Shown: positions 2 through 7,059 of the stretch, piece by piece
Layout of the letters: each line of letters begins with the position of its first letter
Numbering within the stretch: the stretch's first letter is position 1
From: Candidatus Mcinerneyibacteriota bacterium
GTDB lineage: Bacteria; AUK180; JAQVHJ01
Assembly (NCBI GenBank): GCA_030630935.1
Contig: DAOVMD010000154.1
Span: 1 to 7,059, forward strand
Direction: 5' to 3'
Length of the DNA stretch: 7,059 bases
The notes under the pieces: generated by a model
What the model saw: only the letters and a program-made list of their open reading frames with translations
The model's database searches: none
Told to the model about the DNA's origin: nothing
Position numbers and translations under genes: made by a program

Positions 2-886
2 GAAGACGAGAGAATTTTTGTCCTTGGAGCTGACCTAACAAGTTCGACATCTGCGAACTTCTTCCAGGAAGCATTCCCGGAACGATTTGTTCAGACGGGG
101 ATTGCAGAGCAGAATATGATGAATATTGCTGCCGGTTTATCCCTTGAAGGCAAGATCCCATTTGTCAGTACATACGGAGTATTTGTTGCGGGTCGTGCCT
201 GGGATCAGATAAGAACCACTGTTTGCTACGGCAATTTAAATGTTAAGATAGGCGGAGCTCACGGCGGAATTTCAGTTGGTCCTGACGGAGCGACACATCA
301 GGCACTTGAAGAGATTACTATAATGAGAGTTATTCCAAATATGAACGTTGTTGTTCCCTGCGATTACTGGGAAACGATGAAGGCAACCAAGCATATTGCT
401 CTTAAAATAGATGGCCCTTGTTATATCCGATTTGGCCGCGAAGCAGTTCCTATTATAACAGAAGAGGATTCCCCATTTGAATTTGGGAAAGTCGCGGTTT
501 TCAGAGAGGGTAAGGATGCTTCGATTATTGCTTGTGGAATGATGGTTTATTGGGCGCTTGAAGCAGCAAAGGAACTGGAGAAAGACGGTATAGACGTAAT
601 GGTAGTAAATAATCATACTATCAAACCTATTGATAAAGACGGAATTATTGATGCAGCGAAAAAGACCGGTGCGGTTGTAACTGCTGAAGAACACCAGATT
701 ACAGGCGGACTTGGCGGAGCGGTTGCAGAAGTACTTTCACAAAATTATCCTGTTCCAATGAAAATTGTAGGTGTGGAAGATAGGTTCGGTGAATCAGGAG
801 ATCCATGGGAGCTCCTGGAAGAATTTGGCTTGACAACAAAATTTCTTGTTAAAGCAGTAAAAGATGTTATAAAAATGAAAAAATAG
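2..886 (+). CDS. Transketolase, C-terminal subunit (5'-partial)
   Basis: This is the C-terminal half of a split thiamine-diphosphate transketolase, which moves two-carbon ketol units between sugar phosphates in the non-oxidative pentose phosphate pathway in the cytoplasm. The frame is already open at base 2, so the ATG at 116 is internal; 294 residues are visible and roughly 15-20 are probably missing. Seen directly: the TGIAEQNM motif (98-118), whose Glu (107-109) is the family's cofactor-activating residue; the GRAWDQIR stretch; the GGAHGGISVGPDGATHQ loop followed by EEITIMR..PNM, typical of the pyrimidine-binding domain; YIRFGRE; and a C-terminal domain with TAEEHQITGGLGGAVAE. This architecture also resembles 1-deoxy-xylulose-5-phosphate synthase and the E1 beta subunit, but the length and loop sequence fit split transketolase best. 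The N-terminal subunit gene is expected immediately upstream. The gene ends 15 bases before the DHH gene, so it may lead the same transcript. Confidence 0.93.
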   Translation, partial: EDERIFVLGADLTSSTSANFFQEAFPERFVQTGIAEQNMMNIAAGLSLEGKIPFVSTYGVFVAGRAWDQIRTTVCYGNLNVKIGGAHGGISVGPDGATHQALEEITIMRVIPNMNVVVPCDYWETMKATKHIALKIDGPCYIRFGREAVPIITEEDSPFEFGKVAVFREGKDASIIACGMMVYWALEAAKELEKDGIDVMVVNNHTIKPIDKDGIIDAAKKTGAVVTAEEHQITGGLGGAVAEVLSQNYPVPMKIVGVEDRFGESGDPWELLEEFGLTTKFLVKAVKDVIKMKK

Positions 887-901
887 AAAGAGAAGGGTAT
901 T

Positions 902-2227
902 ATGGATTATAAACAATTTGTCGAAGATCTAAAAACTAATGATAAGGACTTTATCAAAGCGCTTGAGTTCTTGAAAAACCTAAGTGGGAAAAAAGTATAT
1001 TTGTTTTCACACGACGATCCTGACGGTATTACTTCAGGTGTATTAATGTCAAGATTACTTGAAAACCTCGATATTGAACATGAAGTTTTCTTCCCCGGAG
1101 CATTTGTTCTTAACTCAAACGATTTTCCCGATTCAGAATATGATGTTGCAATCATAATGGATAAAGGGTCTCTCCCTCAATACTCTGAGTTTGGAGATTT
1201 AGGGAAGGAATTCCTCTTTATCGACCACCACTTTACACCTGGTTTACCAAAAAATGTGACGGTTTATAATCCAAATAAACCTAACCCGGGTCCCTATAAA
1301 GGGTGCTCAGCCTCCTTTCTTGTACATAACTTCTTAACTGCACTTGGTCAGGAAAGTATCTTTTACGATTTCTTCTGCCTGGTCGGGTTAAAAGGAGATT
1401 TTGCAATTGAACCGGTAACAAAAATTGTTAGTGATTATGTGAAATCATTTTATGAATCAGTTGAGAAAAAATTCTCCAAACTACTTTATCCAATGAAGAT
1501 TCATCCGACTATGTTTGATGTTGAGCAGAGAGAGAAATCGTGTTTCCTGAATCAGTTCACAGAACTTATTCATGCGGTATCAGGCGGTGGGTTCCAGTTC
1601 TTTTATAACGATTATGATAAAGCCTTAAAAGATGTAAATCAACCCCTGCTCTCATTTGATTATTTAAGGGAACTTGAAGATAATCGGTTTCATTTCAATG
1701 ATGTCACAAATCTATATGACTTCATTAACAAATCTTCGTATAAAGAACCACTTTCAAAAATTTATCAGTATTATGAGAGAGATTGGGATAAAGGAATTGA
1801 CGTAATCAATAATGCGCTTTTACTCGCAAGCGTGAAAGATACGGGGTTCTTTTTATATTCAGGGAATAAGGTTAAGCTTATGCCAATGCTCGGTTCAGTT
1901 TCGATATTTGATCTGAAAGTCGAGAATAAACTGAAGCACGGTATGATAATCATGGCTTCAAAAGAAGCTGATGTTGTGCACTTCTCAGTTAGGGCAACAG
2001 GCGGAGCATTTCACTCAGGGAAACTCTGTTCAAACATGGCTGAAGAATGGAAGAAGAACAGAAACCCGAAAACAAATGAGAATAATATTTCAGGGGGAGG
2101 GCATCCAAGAGCAGCTGAATGTGTTTCAAAGATGAATTCAATTGATTTTGGACCTGCCCTCCATTCTTTTCTTGACTTGTTTAAAGAACTGAGGGAAGGC
2201 TCTGATAAATTTAATACAGAAGGATAG
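902..2227 (+). CDS. DHH/DHHA1-family phosphoesterase (RecJ/GAN/NrnA-like nuclease)
   Basis: This 441-residue protein is a probable metal-dependent (Mn2+) nuclease or phosphodiesterase of the DHH superfamily, acting in the cytoplasm. The motifs are intact: motif I HDDPDG (H37, D39, D41), motif II MDKG (D87), motif III IDHH (107-110) and motif IV GLKGDF (D166) form the metal site. Near the C-terminus the GGGHPRAA segment (GGGH at 398-401) is the signature of the substrate-binding DHHA1 domain. Between them (about 170-330) lies a divergent linker I do not recognise. The length is shorter than bacterial RecJ (about 560) and longer than NrnA (about 320), and is closest to archaeal RecJ-like/GAN proteins. 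The exact substrate (ssDNA 5' exonuclease, nanoRNA or RNA, or cyclic dinucleotide) cannot be read from the sequence. The start is supported by AGAAGG at 891-896, 5 bases upstream. It is followed after 5 bases by an unknown gene and then a polynucleotide kinase, so a role in nucleic-acid end processing fits. Confidence 0.88.
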   Translation: MDYKQFVEDLKTNDKDFIKALEFLKNLSGKKVYLFSHDDPDGITSGVLMSRLLENLDIEHEVFFPGAFVLNSNDFPDSEYDVAIIMDKGSLPQYSEFGDLGKEFLFIDHHFTPGLPKNVTVYNPNKPNPGPYKGCSASFLVHNFLTALGQESIFYDFFCLVGLKGDFAIEPVTKIVSDYVKSFYESVEKKFSKLLYPMKIHPTMFDVEQREKSCFLNQFTELIHAVSGGGFQFFYNDYDKALKDVNQPLLSFDYLRELEDNRFHFNDVTNLYDFINKSSYKEPLSKIYQYYERDWDKGIDVINNALLLASVKDTGFFLYSGNKVKLMPMLGSVSIFDLKVENKLKHGMIIMASKEADVVHFSVRATGGAFHSGKLCSNMAEEWKKNRNPKTNENNISGGGHPRAAECVSKMNSIDFGPALHSFLDLFKELREGSDKFNTEG

Positions 2228-2232
2228 AAATT

Positions 2233-2622
2233 ATGTCATTTTCAGAATCTGATTTTCCAGGGTTAATTTCTCTGATAGAAGGGACATTAAAGAAATATAA
2301 AAACTCTGACTTTGCCGTGGCACTGGTTAACGAGATTATAAGGGTTTATAACAGAGTTCCTCTATATCCCGGGATCGCAGGGATGTGCGCAGGAACAATG
2401 GCTCAGACGGTTACACCAGATAAAATAAAAGCCGGAGATGAAGTTCTTGTTGAACTTGAAGGTTCACCTTCCCAGTTTGGGACTGTTAAGGAAATTTCCT
2501 CTGATGAAATAACAGTTGGTAATTCTAAAATATCAATATCCGAAACAGTGAGTATCTTGAAATTAAATAAGAATACACTGGAAGAGATATGGCCAACACT
2601 AATATTTCCTGAGGAGGTATAA
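2233..2622 (+). CDS. Uncharacterised 129-residue protein, possible SH3-like barrel
   Basis: I do not recognise this family. The protein is small and soluble, with no signal peptide or membrane segment. Residues 10-40 look alpha-helical and amphipathic (LISLIEGTLKKY, ALVNEIIRVYNRV). A short Pro/Gly-rich turn (PLYPGIAGMCAG) follows, then a run of short beta strands at 64-110 (KAGDEVLVEL, FGTVKEISSDEITVG, KISISETVSIL) whose spacing resembles an SH3-like or KOW/Sm-type small barrel. That fold assignment is inference. The start is set by AGAAGG at 2218-2223, inside the end of the DHH gene. The stop codon TAA directly abuts the ATG of the Clp1-like kinase gene. Wedged between two nucleic-acid enzymes with no spacing, it is a candidate adaptor or nucleic-acid-binding subunit. 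The single Cys (52) argues against a zinc site. That it is a real gene is well supported by its ribosome site and tight packing. Confidence 0.8.
   Translation: MSFSESDFPGLISLIEGTLKKYKNSDFAVALVNEIIRVYNRVPLYPGIAGMCAGTMAQTVTPDKIKAGDEVLVELEGSPSQFGTVKEISSDEITVGNSKISISETVSILKLNKNTLEEIWPTLIFPEEV
2611..2617 (+). promoter_or_regulatory. Ribosome binding site for the Clp1-like kinase, inside the upstream gene
   Basis: GAGGAGG lies 5 bases before the ATG at 2623 and forms the last Glu-Glu codons of the upstream protein, whose TAA stop immediately precedes the ATG. The zero-gap arrangement implies translational coupling and fixes the start of the kinase. Confidence 0.85.
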
Positions 2623-3885
2623 ATGATTACACAAAAAATAAATAAATCAGAAATTTACCTTCTCTCAGGTCCCGCAGAAATAAAGGTTAATTCCGGCTTA
2701 GTTTCTGTAATCGGTGCAGAGTTCAACGAAGGTAAAAGATTCAATGTCCCGACAGGAAAGAGAGTTCCGATTGAGATTCTATTAGATGGTAAGCTGGAGA
2801 TAAACTTCGGTGATACCGGAAGGATTGAAGTCCTTGAAAAAAGAACAATTCCCGAACTCTGGGATGAGCTTGCAGAGAAAATATTTAAAGAAAAACGTCG
2901 AAAAATACTTATCCTTGGTGAAGTTGATACAGGAAAAAGTTTTTTCACAACATATATCTCAAATAAACTAATTAAAAATAAAGTTACAGTCGGTATCCTC
3001 GATTGTGATGTTGGTCAGTCGGATGTCGGTCCTCCGGGAACACTGGGTCTCGCAATTTGTGATAAAGAATTTTTATTCCTTTCAAGTCAACCAGCCGATG
3101 AAATCTTTTTCATCGGATCATTATCTCCGGGACTTCACCTGACATCATTTATTACCGGAATCGATAAACTAACTACTTATGCGGTTACAAAAACAGATTT
3201 CCTGATCATTGATACTACCGGTTGGGTTCAGGGTGACGGCGGCAGACAGGTTAAACAATCTAAGATCGATATCATCCAGCCAGACCTCATCATCCTTCTT
3301 CAGCGCAACAAAGAATTAGAGCATCTTGTCCGGACTGTTCACCCCGACAACATCTTCCGACTCCCGGTTTCCAAGAAAGCGTCAAATACATCGCAAGGCG
3401 ATAGAAAAGCCCTTCGCGAGTTAGTTTCGATTAATTATTTTAAGAATTCTAAGAGTTATTCAATCTCGCTTGACAAAATAAAAACAGAGCGTTCGTATTT
3501 TAAATCGGGTTACGAACTAAGTTTAAATAATGAGAAGGTTGAGTATGCGGAGAGGTTAAGTGCTTGGGAAGGAATACTTGCGTTTGTAACGGAGTTATTG
3601 ACCCCGGATGAATTGGCAGATTTAAAGAAGGAGCATAACGTATTTAATATTAGGCAATTTAAGACTGGCACCGAGAAATATTTAACGGTTGCCTTATTAG
3701 ATAAAAATCGAAGAGCCCTGGGTTTGGGAAACATTGAGAAGTTTGACTTTAAAGATAAGGCAATCATTCTTCATTCTCCTATTTCAGCTGATAATTTCAA
3801 GAAAGTAGAGATTATCCAGTTTGGATCAAACCGCACAAATTTCTCCGGTAAGGAGATGGGATTTATTTCACCAGGGTCTTTATAA
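2623..3885 (+). CDS. Clp1/Grc3-type P-loop polynucleotide 5'-kinase
   Basis: This 420-residue protein is a probable ATP-dependent kinase that phosphorylates 5'-hydroxyl ends of RNA and/or DNA. The family includes human CLP1, NOL9/Grc3 and archaeal Clp1 homologues. Layout: an N-terminal beta domain (about 8-72) with the family pattern GPAEIKV..G.V.V.GAEF and VPTGKRVPIE; Walker A GEVDTGKS (99-106); the highly characteristic DCDVGQSDVGPPGT (127-140), the Walker B-like Asp pair plus GQ; FIGSLSPG (163-170); a DTTGWVQGDGGRQ clasp (197-209); a lid region with R261, R265 and YF (272-273); and a C-terminal beta domain with ALGLG (365-369) and IILHSPI, as in archaeal/NOL9-type members. All catalytic motifs appear intact. 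The start is fixed by a strong ribosome site and a zero-gap junction with the upstream gene. The family is common in eukaryotes and archaea and sparse in bacteria, so the presence here is notable. Whether RNA or DNA is preferred cannot be read from the sequence. Confidence 0.9.
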   Translation: MITQKINKSEIYLLSGPAEIKVNSGLVSVIGAEFNEGKRFNVPTGKRVPIEILLDGKLEINFGDTGRIEVLEKRTIPELWDELAEKIFKEKRRKILILGEVDTGKSFFTTYISNKLIKNKVTVGILDCDVGQSDVGPPGTLGLAICDKEFLFLSSQPADEIFFIGSLSPGLHLTSFITGIDKLTTYAVTKTDFLIIDTTGWVQGDGGRQVKQSKIDIIQPDLIILLQRNKELEHLVRTVHPDNIFRLPVSKKASNTSQGDRKALRELVSINYFKNSKSYSISLDKIKTERSYFKSGYELSLNNEKVEYAERLSAWEGILAFVTELLTPDELADLKKEHNVFNIRQFKTGTEKYLTVALLDKNRRALGLGNIEKFDFKDKAIILHSPISADNFKKVEIIQFGSNRTNFSGKEMGFISPGSL

Positions 3886-3887
3886 AC

Positions 3888-3895
3888 AGGAGAGG
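3888..3895 (+). promoter_or_regulatory. Ribosome binding site that decides the DUF3006 start
   Basis: AGGAGAGG lies just upstream of the ATG at 3899. It favours that codon over the in-frame ATG at 3821, which would overlap the kinase gene by 65 bases and add 26 residues unlike the family. Confidence 0.8.
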
Positions 3896-3898
3896 CCT

Positions 3899-4138
3899 AT
3901 GAGCGACATAACAGGCAGTATTGACAGGATTGAAGGCGACCTGGCAGTAATTTTATTGGACCAGGGCGGGGAGTTTATAATCCACAAGGATTCACTTCCT
4001 TCGGGTTGGCATGAGGGTTCAGTTATCCGATTCCGTCTTGAGCTTGATGAAGCTGAGGAGAAGAAGCGTATTGCTGAAGTGAAAGAGCTTCAGGAGAAGT
4101 TAATTAAGCGAACCGAAGAAAAGAATAAAAAAGAATAA
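3899..4138 (+). CDS. DUF3006-family small protein
   Basis: This 79-residue cytoplasmic protein matches the DUF3006 pattern: an opening SIDRIEGDLAVILL strand pair, then a short hairpin (GGEFIIHKDSLPSGWHEGSVIRF) forming a small beta barrel over residues 5-50. A highly charged helix follows (about 52-79, rich in Glu and Lys), probably a coiled or extended tail. The biochemical function of the family is not established; members often sit beside metallo-beta-lactamase-fold or competence-type hydrolases. Here it follows the Clp1-like kinase after 13 bases, so it is probably the last gene of that operon. The start is chosen by its ribosome site and by family length. The barrel could bind nucleic acid or a partner enzyme, but nothing in the sequence proves this. 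Confidence 0.8.
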   Translation: MSDITGSIDRIEGDLAVILLDQGGEFIIHKDSLPSGWHEGSVIRFRLELDEAEEKKRIAEVKELQEKLIKRTEEKNKKE

Positions 4139-4181
4139 ATTTTAATGTTTTTTTTAATTTTTTAGATTTTGGAGGTTTTTT
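4139..4181 (+). promoter_or_regulatory. T-rich, cytosine-free gap with ribosome site; possible promoter region
   Basis: These 43 bases are the largest gene gap in the window. They contain no C at all, a run of eight T (4148-4155), a run of six T (4158-4163), and GGAGG at 4171-4175, six bases before the ATG of the secreted-protein gene. They mark the switch from the intracellular nucleic-acid genes to the cell-surface genes. A promoter or an AT-rich upstream element here or in the end of the preceding gene is plausible, but no clear core motif is visible. No GC-rich hairpin precedes the T runs, so a canonical terminator is not supported. Confidence 0.35.
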
Positions 4182-6428
4182 ATGAAATACAAATTTCTAA
4201 TTGTAGGACTATTGCTTTTATTTGGTTTGACAGTATTCGGAAACTATGTAGATTATGTAGTAGTCAGTCAGGTTGAATATGATTGTCCTGGTGCCGAGAC
4301 TGCACATGAGTATGTTGAACTATACAACCCGACTAATCATGATATTGACATTTCCGGTTGGGATATTGTTTATAAAACCGCGGCGGGATCTACTTGGAGT
4401 ATCAAAGCAACATTACCTGCAGGTTCAACTATTCAGGCTTGTGGGTATTTTCTTGTTGGCGGCAGTCTAATTAGCACTGAATGGCCTGGAGTTACTGTTG
4501 ATTTTGTTGAAGATGGTATAGGGTTATCAGGAACAGGCGGTCATGTTGGAATCCGTGATGTCTCGGACACTGTAATTGATTATGTTGGTTGGGGTACCGC
4601 GGCTTCAGCAGAAGGCGGGTCAGCCGCTCCTGATGCAGGTTCATCTACAGACTCAATTGAAAGGATATCAGGTCCTGCCGGGATTAATGTAAACGGTCAG
4701 GGTAACGGTTGGGATACAGATAATAATGGGAATGATTGGGTGATTATAAATGAAGCACCTTCAAACTCATCATCCCCAACGGAATGTCCACCTGATGCAA
4801 CTCCGCCTCAAGTTTCGCTGACCGATCCGGTTGACACAGCAACAGGGGTTGCCTTAAACAAGGTTGTTACGATAACCTTTGATGAAGCCATGGACACTGG
4901 AACAGCAACGATTGCTTTTGCAATTAATCCATTAGTAACCGGTGCAACAAATATTACATGGGCAGGTGGAGACACAATATTAATCTTCACTCATACGATT
5001 GATTTTGCTGCTGACACTCTTTATACTATTACTATCTCGACTGATGCCGAAGATACCAGCGGTAATGCTCTTGATGGTGACGGGGACGGCAGTTCTGGTC
5101 CCGATTACATATTTAGTTTTACTACTATGGATGCAACATCCCCTGACACGATCACTGACCTTGCTGCAAGTGATGGTCCCGGTTCAAAGCAGGTAACCCT
5201 GGATTGGACTGCTGTAGGAGATGATGGAAATGTTGGGACGGCAACATCTTATATTCTAAAGTACTCAACTACAAATATTACGAACGACACCGATTTCATC
5301 AATGCAACTACGTATGCTCAAGCCTGGACTCCATTAATTGCAGGGAGTCCGGAGTCACAAGTGCTTACAATGCCGGATGCCGGGCAATTATATTATTTTT
5401 CTATTAAAGCGGTTGATGACAGTACAAATGAATCACCGTTTGGAAATGTTGATTCAGCCACATCCGGAGACTCTGCTACATCAGTCTCCCCGAATGTTAA
5501 GGCAGCTACGAGCGGCAGGGTTACATATACATTTACCTTTAGTGTAATCTCCCCGAAATATGATGGTGATGATTCTTTCAGGTTAGTTGTACCTGCAGCC
5601 TGGGGAACGGTAACTGCGGGGACTACTCAGGTTCTTCTTGATGGAACCAATTTCCCCGGTTTCACTATAAGTGGTCAGGAGATTACTGCTTCGAATATAA
5701 CCGTGAATAATAATATTCAAGTTATTGTAGGGCCTATTACGGTTCAATCAGCTGCACAGGCTAATGTTGCGTTTGAGATGTATACTAATGTTGATGGCGG
5801 CGGTTTCATCGCAGTCACAGGTTCACCGACCGTTGATGTTTCAGAGCCGGCAACGATTACATTAAATCCTGCAACTGACCCTCATCATACTCCAGGAACT
5901 ACAGATATTGTGACTGTAGAGATCAGGGATTCGAGCAATGAAATTTTATACGGTGCTCAAATTGACCTGGTCATCACGAAGAATCCAGGTGGTGATGCAA
6001 CCTTGAATAATTCTACAATCTATACAGATCTTTCCGGAACTGCAACTTTCAACTATAAACTTTCTGCCACACCCGGTGAGAATGAAGTAACGATTACATG
6101 TAATACACTAACTGCAATTTATTTAGACACAGCATTTGCAGGGAATTATATATCCCAGAATTACCCGAACCCATTTAACCTGAACAGGTACCAGAATACA
6201 ACTTTTAGAATTAACCTTGAAGGTAATTTTGAAGTGAAACTTTTGATATATAATATTAATGGTATACTTATCAGAACACTTCATGACGGTCCGATGACTT
6301 CAGGTCTTCACGAGGTTACCTGGGACGGGACAAATGACCATTTTAAACAATTAGACTCTGGAGTTTATTTTGTTTATTTCAAATATGGAAGCAATACTGA
6401 AAAGTTTAAGATGACAATAGTGAAATAA
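4182..6428 (+). CDS. Secreted multidomain protein with lamin-tail, Ig/FN3 domains and T9SS sorting domain
   Basis: This 748-residue surface or extracellular protein has no enzymatic domain that I recognise. Domains in order: a signal peptide (1-20, MKYK then a hydrophobic run ending VFG); a lamin-tail domain (about 22-190) with EYVELYNPTNHDIDISGWDI, LPAGSTI and the late DSIERI; a Big_5/SbsA-like Ig domain (about 207-315) with PVDTATGVALN, ITFDEAMD and a DGDGDGSSGPDY loop that could bind calcium; a fibronectin type III domain (about 318-428) with LDWTAVGDDG and YYFSIKAVDD; a beta-rich region (430-555) of a type I cannot name; a Big_1/invasin-like domain (about 556-645) with VTVEIRDSSNE and GTATFNYKL; and a C-terminal type IX sorting domain (about 652-748) starting ISQNYPNPFN and ending with GVYFVYF and a Lys-rich KFKMTIVK. 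It is probably exported by Sec, then moved across the outer membrane and anchored or released by T9SS. A likely role is adhesion or cell-surface structure, but that is inference. GGAGG lies six bases before the ATG. Confidence 0.88.
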   Translation: MKYKFLIVGLLLLFGLTVFGNYVDYVVVSQVEYDCPGAETAHEYVELYNPTNHDIDISGWDIVYKTAAGSTWSIKATLPAGSTIQACGYFLVGGSLISTEWPGVTVDFVEDGIGLSGTGGHVGIRDVSDTVIDYVGWGTAASAEGGSAAPDAGSSTDSIERISGPAGINVNGQGNGWDTDNNGNDWVIINEAPSNSSSPTECPPDATPPQVSLTDPVDTATGVALNKVVTITFDEAMDTGTATIAFAINPLVTGATNITWAGGDTILIFTHTIDFAADTLYTITISTDAEDTSGNALDGDGDGSSGPDYIFSFTTMDATSPDTITDLAASDGPGSKQVTLDWTAVGDDGNVGTATSYILKYSTTNITNDTDFINATTYAQAWTPLIAGSPESQVLTMPDAGQLYYFSIKAVDDSTNESPFGNVDSATSGDSATSVSPNVKAATSGRVTYTFTFSVISPKYDGDDSFRLVVPAAWGTVTAGTTQVLLDGTNFPGFTISGQEITASNITVNNNIQVIVGPITVQSAAQANVAFEMYTNVDGGGFIAVTGSPTVDVSEPATITLNPATDPHHTPGTTDIVTVEIRDSSNEILYGAQIDLVITKNPGGDATLNNSTIYTDLSGTATFNYKLSATPGENEVTITCNTLTAIYLDTAFAGNYISQNYPNPFNLNRYQNTTFRINLEGNFEVKLLIYNINGILIRTLHDGPMTSGLHEVTWDGTNDHFKQLDSGVYFVYFKYGSNTEKFKMTIVK

Positions 6429-6449: not shown

Positions 6450-7059
6450 ATGAAAAAACTCTTAACGTTTTTGTTATTAATTTTTCTGCTATTTACATTA
6501 TCGTATGCAGAAGCAGATTCGTACATTTATTCCGGGACAAAATCTATCGGGAACTTTCTAAAAATTCCGATAGGCGCCCGGGTTGAGGCAATGGGTAATA
6601 CCTATATCGCCCTGTCGGATGATATTGAAGGGATTAACTCAAACCCTGCGGGTCTTGCACTTGAGGACAGGTACCTGATAGGTTTAACCGCGGGAACTTA
6701 TTACCTTGACTTGACTTATAATTTCATTGGTGTAATGATTCCTACGGAGACAATGGGAAATATTTCTATCTCGGCGATTTACCTTGATTACGGTACCCAG
6801 GATGAGTTAGATGAATATGGCAGTTTAATCGGCGATTTCACATGTTACGATGCTGCTGTAACATTAACGGTATCGGACACTATCTTTTCCGGGTTATACG
6901 CCGGATTCAATGCAAGGTATATTGAAACGAAACTTGGTGACTATAGTGGCGGAACACTCGCGGGTGATATTGGAATATTATGGAACCCGTCTTTTTATAG
7001 AAGTATATTTTTGGGATTAGTTCTGAGGAATTTTGGTATGTCAATGAAACTTGACGAGA
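6450..7059 (+). CDS. PorV/PorQ-family outer-membrane protein (3'-partial)
   Basis: The window contains the first 203 residues; the gene continues past the end. A signal peptide covers about residues 1-20 (MKKLLTFLLLIFLLF, ending SYA). The mature start carries the family hallmark: FLKIPIGARVEAMGNTYIALSDDIEGINSNPAGLA, meaning a conserved region around residues 37-70 with the GAR..AMG and NPAGL elements. After it come alternating amphipathic strands typical of an outer-membrane beta-barrel (IGLTAGTYYLDLTYNFIGV, SISAIYLDYG, AGFNARYIETKLG). Known members include PorV, a T9SS shuttle that carries cargo recognised by its C-terminal sorting domain to the surface-attachment complex, and PorQ; many FCB paralogues are unassigned, so which type this is remains open. 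It lies directly after a gene with such a sorting domain, which supports a role in handling that cargo or a surface complex with it. Confidence 0.85.
   Translation, partial: MKKLLTFLLLIFLLFTLSYAEADSYIYSGTKSIGNFLKIPIGARVEAMGNTYIALSDDIEGINSNPAGLALEDRYLIGLTAGTYYLDLTYNFIGVMIPTETMGNISISAIYLDYGTQDELDEYGSLIGDFTCYDAAVTLTVSDTIFSGLYAGFNARYIETKLGDYSGGTLAGDIGILWNPSFYRSIFLGLVLRNFGMSMKLDE

Follow-up and report, generated by a model that had tools for sequence, protein, structure and literature searches.

The window analysed here (7,059 nucleotides) is the entire contig DAOVMD010000154.1 of a draft genome, 3.16 Mb in size and 80% complete, of a Candidatus Mcinerneyibacteriota bacterium. Three adjacent genes in it encode a compact nuclease (DHH), a small protein of a new family (U) and a Clp1/Grc3-family polynucleotide 5'-hydroxyl kinase (CLP1). 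That these genes form a conserved three-gene module is near certain. Their lasting adjacency in several lineages of bacteria and in one phylum of archaea suggests that they encode an undescribed machine for processing RNA/DNA ends, with the kinase perhaps making ends ready for the nuclease. The kinase and the nuclease are of kinds already known; what appears to be new is the triad, the family of U and their distribution.

The order and adjacency of DHH, U and CLP1 were kept in all seven genomes that the collection examined contains for the window's phylum, at identities of 39-71% for CLP1 and 27-43% for U. A search that used a CLP1 alignment detected 36 loci, in Riflebacteria/Ozemobacter, in metagenome-assembled genomes labelled as Elusimicrobia and Caldiserica, in further bacteria and in one Hadarchaeum; it ran on two peptide patterns and therefore underestimates the true distribution. 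A scan of genome contigs with a single CLP1 sequence gave no match. In nearly all scanned loci U was located directly 5' of CLP1, and DHH 5' of U, mostly at most 20 bases away (the median gap is 11 bases between DHH and U, and -1 between U and CLP1). Other genes, spanning 3.0-4.7 kb, intervened between DHH and U in some lineages. The recurrence of order and tight spacing across phyla indicates that the association is more than chance, and the arrangement, with its invariant catalytic residues, is not peculiar to this genome; a gene order confined to one genome was an outcome that the initial annotation of the window had named as refuting its reading. Among 39 Riflebacteria genomes, 20 carried CLP1 and 19 of these also U (in the exception, G014, the locus was truncated by the contig end), and the remaining 19 had neither. 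Pairwise distances of DHH, U and CLP1 correlated with r of 0.93-0.97 (38 loci), and in the tree the window's phylum formed one supported group and Hadarchaeota another. Contamination as the source of the Hadarchaeum locus was rejected, as U was found in 12 of 28 Hadarchaeota genomes within a typical archaeal superoperon. Spread by plasmids or viruses was likewise rejected, since CLP1 had no match in plasmids or in viral contigs. No U was found among 200 genomes of the phylum of the archaeon G023, in a search without a positive control.

The genes of the window and their ribosome-binding sites are as follows.

902-2227, + strand: DHH, compact RecJ-core DHH/DHHA1 nuclease, 441 amino acids (Pfam, AlphaFold2 (AF2) fold, invariant residues)
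2218-2224, + strand: probable ribosome-binding site of U, AGAAGGA, within the 3' end of DHH, 8 bases ahead of the ATG at 2233
2233-2622, + strand: U, small protein of a new family, 129 amino acids (AF2 model, family alignment)
2611-2617, + strand: probable ribosome-binding site of CLP1, GAGGAGG, within the 3' end of U, 5 bases ahead of the ATG at 2623
2623-3885, + strand: CLP1, Clp1/Grc3-family polynucleotide 5'-hydroxyl kinase, 420 amino acids (Pfam, profile matches, motifs)
3888-3895, + strand: ribosome-binding site of the DUF3006 gene, AGGAGAGG, in the gap between CLP1 and DUF3006
3899-4138, + strand: DUF3006 protein, 79 amino acids, with its start ATG at 3899 (Pfam)

The four genes stand in a row, all on the + strand, with intergenic gaps of 5, 0 and 13 bases. 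This layout, with two ribosome sites inside the upstream genes, had been described in the initial annotation and was confirmed on the sequence.

DHH matched the Pfam DHH domain at 31.5 bits (cut-off 28.1), with DHHA1 slightly below its cut-off. The closest families were archaeal RecJ. Scores against the NCBIfam equivalogs remained far under their cut-offs (RecJ_archaeal, 52.8 bits vs 360; recJ, 33.6 vs 396.9), and on these profile scores DHH is a subfamily separate from the named RecJ equivalogs. The AF2 model (predicted local distance difference test (pLDDT) score 89.8) was aligned to the Thermus RecJ core with a Z score of 29.3 over 337 residues at 3.1 A, indicating a predicted RecJ core fold; other matches were MjRecJ2 (Z 25.5), phosphoadenosine phosphate (PAP) phosphatase (22) and nanoRNase (20). 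The NrnA/GdpP/DhhP-type DHH phosphodiesterases share the fold, but at Z 18-20; by fold comparison DHH looks closer to the RecJ type than to the cyclic-dinucleotide type, in line with the earlier assignment. Residues H37, D39, D41, D87, D108-H109-H110, D166, S362, R364 and GGGH398-401 were invariant in all 29 relatives; they include the metal-binding and catalytic residues, and RecJ-type motifs I-IV and the DHHA1 GGGH were present. S362 and R364 probably match S371 and R373 of Deinococcus RecJ by motif, of which R373 has been named as 5'-phosphate binding (PMC4846377). The DHH-DHHA1 fold and catalytic residues are common to DHH, the archaeal RecJ proteins (RecJ1/RecJ2, GAN) and the bacterial RecJ core; unlike RecJ and GAN, DHH has no OB domain. 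At least one separate, more distant RecJ/DHH-type gene was carried by six of the seven genomes of the phylum, and the possibility that DHH is the housekeeping RecJ was therefore rejected. Hadarchaeota have a true archaeal RecJ next to DHH, and the bacteria carry further RecJ-type genes in addition to it.

CLP1 matched Pfam CLP1_P at 126 bits (cut-off 26.6), and a profile search returned two animal Clp1 structures (human and C. elegans aligned) with E values of 3e-19 and 5e-19. All 34 relatives had the Walker A motif GEVDTGK[ST], DxDxGQ, the TxGW clasp and the lid arginines R261/R265. By these motifs CLP1 is a member of the Clp1/Grc3/Nol9 polynucleotide kinase family, and the Clp1-type assignment made earlier was sound. 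A bacterial homologue, Thermus Clp1, is a proven RNA 5'-OH kinase that strongly prefers RNA over DNA (PMC6777427). The protein of Thermus scotoductus is about 27 kDa, whereas CLP1 (420 amino acids) has added N- and C-terminal parts. Bacterial Clp1-family kinases are rare (14 of 1,543 species), and the survey gave no cellular role and no gene partners (PMC6777427). That paper contained no genomic-context analysis, whereas CLP1 has recurrent operon partners. With a nuclease as a regular partner and a new small protein as RNA-binding candidate, the purpose of prokaryotic Clp1 becomes open to direct biochemical test. No description of the DHH-U-CLP1 set was found in the literature search, with most subscription journals and all preprints outside its range; the only co-mention of Clp1 and RecJ was in a phage genome paper, unrelated by title, with one mention of each.

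U had no meaningful match in Pfam, NCBIfam or PADLOC. Its family (34 members) conserved P43, P46-G47, G83, W120-P121 and L123, with PLYPG and WPxL as conserved segments. The AF2 model (pLDDT 87.8) comprised three helices and a five-strand barrel, of which residues about 61-111 superposed on M. jannaschii Hfq over 49 residues at 1.4 A. No match to Sm/LSm/Hfq was found at the sequence level, including Pfam Sm/Hfq, and U can be regarded as a borderline case of an Sm/Hfq-like barrel protein from its predicted structure. Unlike Hfq, LSm and archaeal Sm-like proteins, U adds an N-terminal three-helix part and a C-terminal WPxL segment.

Conserved gene order, families, predicted folds and intact active sites can be read from the sequence itself; we infer co-transcription, a physical complex, degradation in the 5'-3' direction, priming by the kinase, what U does and what the module is for in the cell. 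Our tentative preference, held at somewhat less than even confidence, is that DHH-U-CLP1 is a co-inherited module for kinase-primed 5'-3' degradation, with U as a nucleic-acid-binding partner. The substrate would be single-stranded RNA, possibly DNA too, bearing a 5'-hydroxyl. CLP1 would move a phosphate from ATP onto the 5'-OH, and DHH, as a minimal RecJ-type exonuclease, would take up the 5'-phosphate end and degrade the strand to mononucleotides. The Sm-like barrel of U may bind nucleic acid, and its helical part may hold the enzymes together. The module could thereby clear or recycle 5'-OH fragments beyond the reach of other 5'-phosphate-dependent nucleases.

This mechanism is proposed because of the kinase activity of Thermus Clp1, the 5'-phosphate effects in archaeal RecJ and the precedent of yeast Grc3-Rat1. 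It is also favoured by the adjacency and co-occurrence of the three genes, the correlated distances of their products, the invariant catalytic motifs, the RecJ-core fold of DHH and the motif correspondence of S362 and R364. The activity of archaeal RecJ1 is stimulated by a 5'-phosphate, and RecJ2 acts as a 5' exonuclease on 5'-phosphorylated strands only, its chief activity being 3'-5' on RNA (PMC5615345). These effects, known for MjRecJ1 and MjRecJ2, are a direct precedent for the 5'-phosphate preference that the initial annotation had ascribed to many RecJ-type enzymes. In yeast, Grc3 phosphorylates the 5' end and enables trimming by Rat1 (PMC5702609). In the Las1-Grc3/Rat1-Rai1 system of eukaryotic internal transcribed spacer 2 (ITS2) processing, as in the proposed module, a Clp1-family kinase phosphorylates a 5' end and thereby enables a 5'-3' exonuclease (PMC5702609). 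Unlike that system, the module has a DHH/RecJ nuclease, not an Xrn-type one, and an added small Sm-like protein; the kinase-nuclease coupling is what we infer here. A Grc3-Rat1 system consists of a Clp1-family kinase and an Xrn-type 5'-phosphate exonuclease. In the module the kinase is present and the nuclease is of the DHH type, and the loci examined showed no HEPN endonuclease. The module is at most an analogue of Grc3-Rat1. It is rather unlikely, though conceivable, that it represents a widespread prokaryotic counterpart, in which a complex of Clp1 kinase, RecJ-core exonuclease and Sm-like adaptor would turn 5'-OH RNA/DNA ends into exonuclease substrates in Hadarchaeota and several bacterial phyla. 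If priming is true, prokaryotes have a degradation route for 5'-OH fragments, and the pairing of a Clp1-family kinase with an exonuclease that deals with 5'-OH ends evolved at least twice, with a different nuclease each time.

Several observations weigh against the preferred explanation. The S362/R364 pair is common to other DHH enzymes and is not diagnostic, the position of R109 in drRecJ has no clear counterpart in DHH, and among the archaeal RecJ relatives are enzymes that work 3'-5' on RNA (PMC5615345). The barrel of U matched Hfq/LSm at Z 7-7.8, below 8, which the tool itself rates as borderline. Nothing encoded in the cluster would supply 5'-OH ends. The module is also separable, as six genomes had one or two of its genes missing: G033 and G034 (Riflebacteria) and G090 (Hadarchaeota) carried U-CLP1 without this DHH, G093 carried DHH-CLP1 without U, and G088 and G089 carried DHH with neither U nor CLP1 at the locus. 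In G020/G021 DHH was found at a separate genome position. The link among the three genes is strong, not absolute.

The same observations bear on a second explanation, in which DHH attacks 3' ends or short oligonucleotides, CLP1 serves a task of its own, and the genes are grouped for general RNA turnover with no priming. The 3'-5' RNA enzymes MjRecJ2 and PfRecJ are among the closest relatives of DHH (PMC5615345), and several genomes have DHH and U-CLP1 apart. However, 5'-3' bacterial RecJ cores ranked first in the fold comparison, and the gene order, with overlapping genes, persists between very distant relatives, which points to a coupled step. We regard turnover without priming as unlikely.

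The neighbourhoods of the module in other lineages raise a third explanation, namely that it serves nucleotide salvage by breaking down scavenged nucleic acid, such as single-stranded DNA that enters through ComEC. In 18 Riflebacteria-type loci, genes for ComEA-like and metallo-beta-lactamase proteins, usually accompanied by ComEC, immediately preceded the module (L019, L020, L023, L025, L026, L028, L029, L031-L034, L038, L039, L042 and L079-L082; in L080, a short contig, the lactamase gene alone is represented). Elusimicrobia-type flanks contained methylthioadenosine (MTA)/nucleoside phosphorylase, adenosine deaminase, dGTPase and kinase genes. In seven Elusimicrobia-type or other bacterial loci (L016, L021, L022, L024, L030, L045, L048) a TIM-barrel protein and a small P-loop kinase were encoded between DHH and U or just 5' of U; MTA phosphorylase was found in six of these loci and adenosine deaminase in two, and a dGTPase gene was located 3' of CLP1 in L030. 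However, such ComEC-type and salvage-type neighbourhoods are absent from the window's phylum and Hadarchaeota, each link is limited to one or two lineages, and the strong preference of Thermus Clp1 for RNA over DNA (PMC6777427) speaks against imported DNA as the substrate. This explanation is improbable. The neighbourhoods agree on nucleic-acid/nucleoside chemistry and not on a single pathway.

A fourth explanation is Pnkp-like RNA end healing, in which DHH would strip a 3'-phosphate or 2',3'-cyclic phosphate, CLP1 would add the 5'-phosphate and a ligase encoded elsewhere would rejoin the ends; known end-healing enzymes pair a 5'-kinase with a phosphoesterase, and some members of the DHH superfamily, PAP phosphatase among them, are phosphatases, but DHH has a full RecJ-size core nearer to RecJ than to PAP phosphatase (Z 29 vs 22) and no RNA ligase was recognised among the neighbours scanned, a scan limited to neighbours and not whole genomes. 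End healing is improbable.

In Hadarchaeota the gene order was Kae1-Bud32-Ham1-S15-RecJ-DHH-U-CLP1-Pcc1, with SerRS and S3Ae next in several genomes. The triad thus lies inside the archaeal S15-RecJ-Pcc1-S3Ae superoperon, beside the true archaeal RecJ. The superoperon with a second DHH gene was seen in L103-L116 with variable U/CLP1; its natural partial versions (L107, L114, L115, L116) are useful for testing dependence. In G088 and G089 (L115 and L116, where U-CLP1 is missing), a gene judged flavodoxin-like by eye only lies two genes 3' of DHH, after Pcc1. In the Riflebacteria-type loci, the ComEA-like HHH protein and a separate ComEC-type metallo-beta-lactamase make up a split-ComEC DNA-uptake locus joined to the nuclease-kinase module. 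The TIM-barrel protein of the Elusimicrobia-type loci had weak similarity to CbiR-type phosphodiesterases, sugar epimerases and deoxyribonuclease IV; in L021, L022, L024 and L048, genes for microcompartment shell proteins, TIM and PTAC come next. The initial annotation had further suggested that the substrates would be fragments left by 5'-OH-generating endonucleases such as toxins. No evidence for this origin was found, the neighbours pointing to DNA uptake, nucleoside salvage or the archaeal translation/RecJ superoperon, and its reading overall is partly supported.

The DUF3006 protein belongs to Pfam PF11213 (67.3 bits, cut-off 32.3). The initial annotation had described a four-gene cassette and named its conservation in relatives as a check; conservation was borne out across phyla for DHH-U-CLP1 and not for DUF3006, which follows CLP1 in two of the seven genomes of the phylum, G000 and G006. 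DUF3006 was therefore rejected as a component of the system and is a lineage-specific neighbour outside the conserved module. The gene that precedes DHH, at a distance of 16 bases, encodes a transketolase C-terminal subunit and recurs in this position in G006 alone. The closest relative, G006, alone repeats the DUF3006 and transketolase flanks, and the other five genomes are flanked differently; the variation of these flanks indicates that the triad is the unit under selection. A search for the DUF3006 context in plasmids gave no match. DUF3006 is probably on the same transcript as the triad. No terminator-like site was seen on the + strand from 700 to 4400, and the window contained 19 promoter-like sites against a mean of 9.9 in shuffles. 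No Rfam RNA family matched the window. In the PADLOC defence library DHH, U and DUF3006 had no match and CLP1 reached only an E value of 0.045 to Csx3; a defence-system identity was rejected, as nothing meaningful came from PADLOC. Downstream, positions 4182-6428 encode a large secreted protein with a lamin-tail domain, a bacterial Ig-like domain and a FlgD/type IX-secretion-like C-terminus, followed by a partial gene (6450-7059) judged by eye to be outer-membrane-like. Both genes are also found downstream of the triad in G006 and in no other genome.

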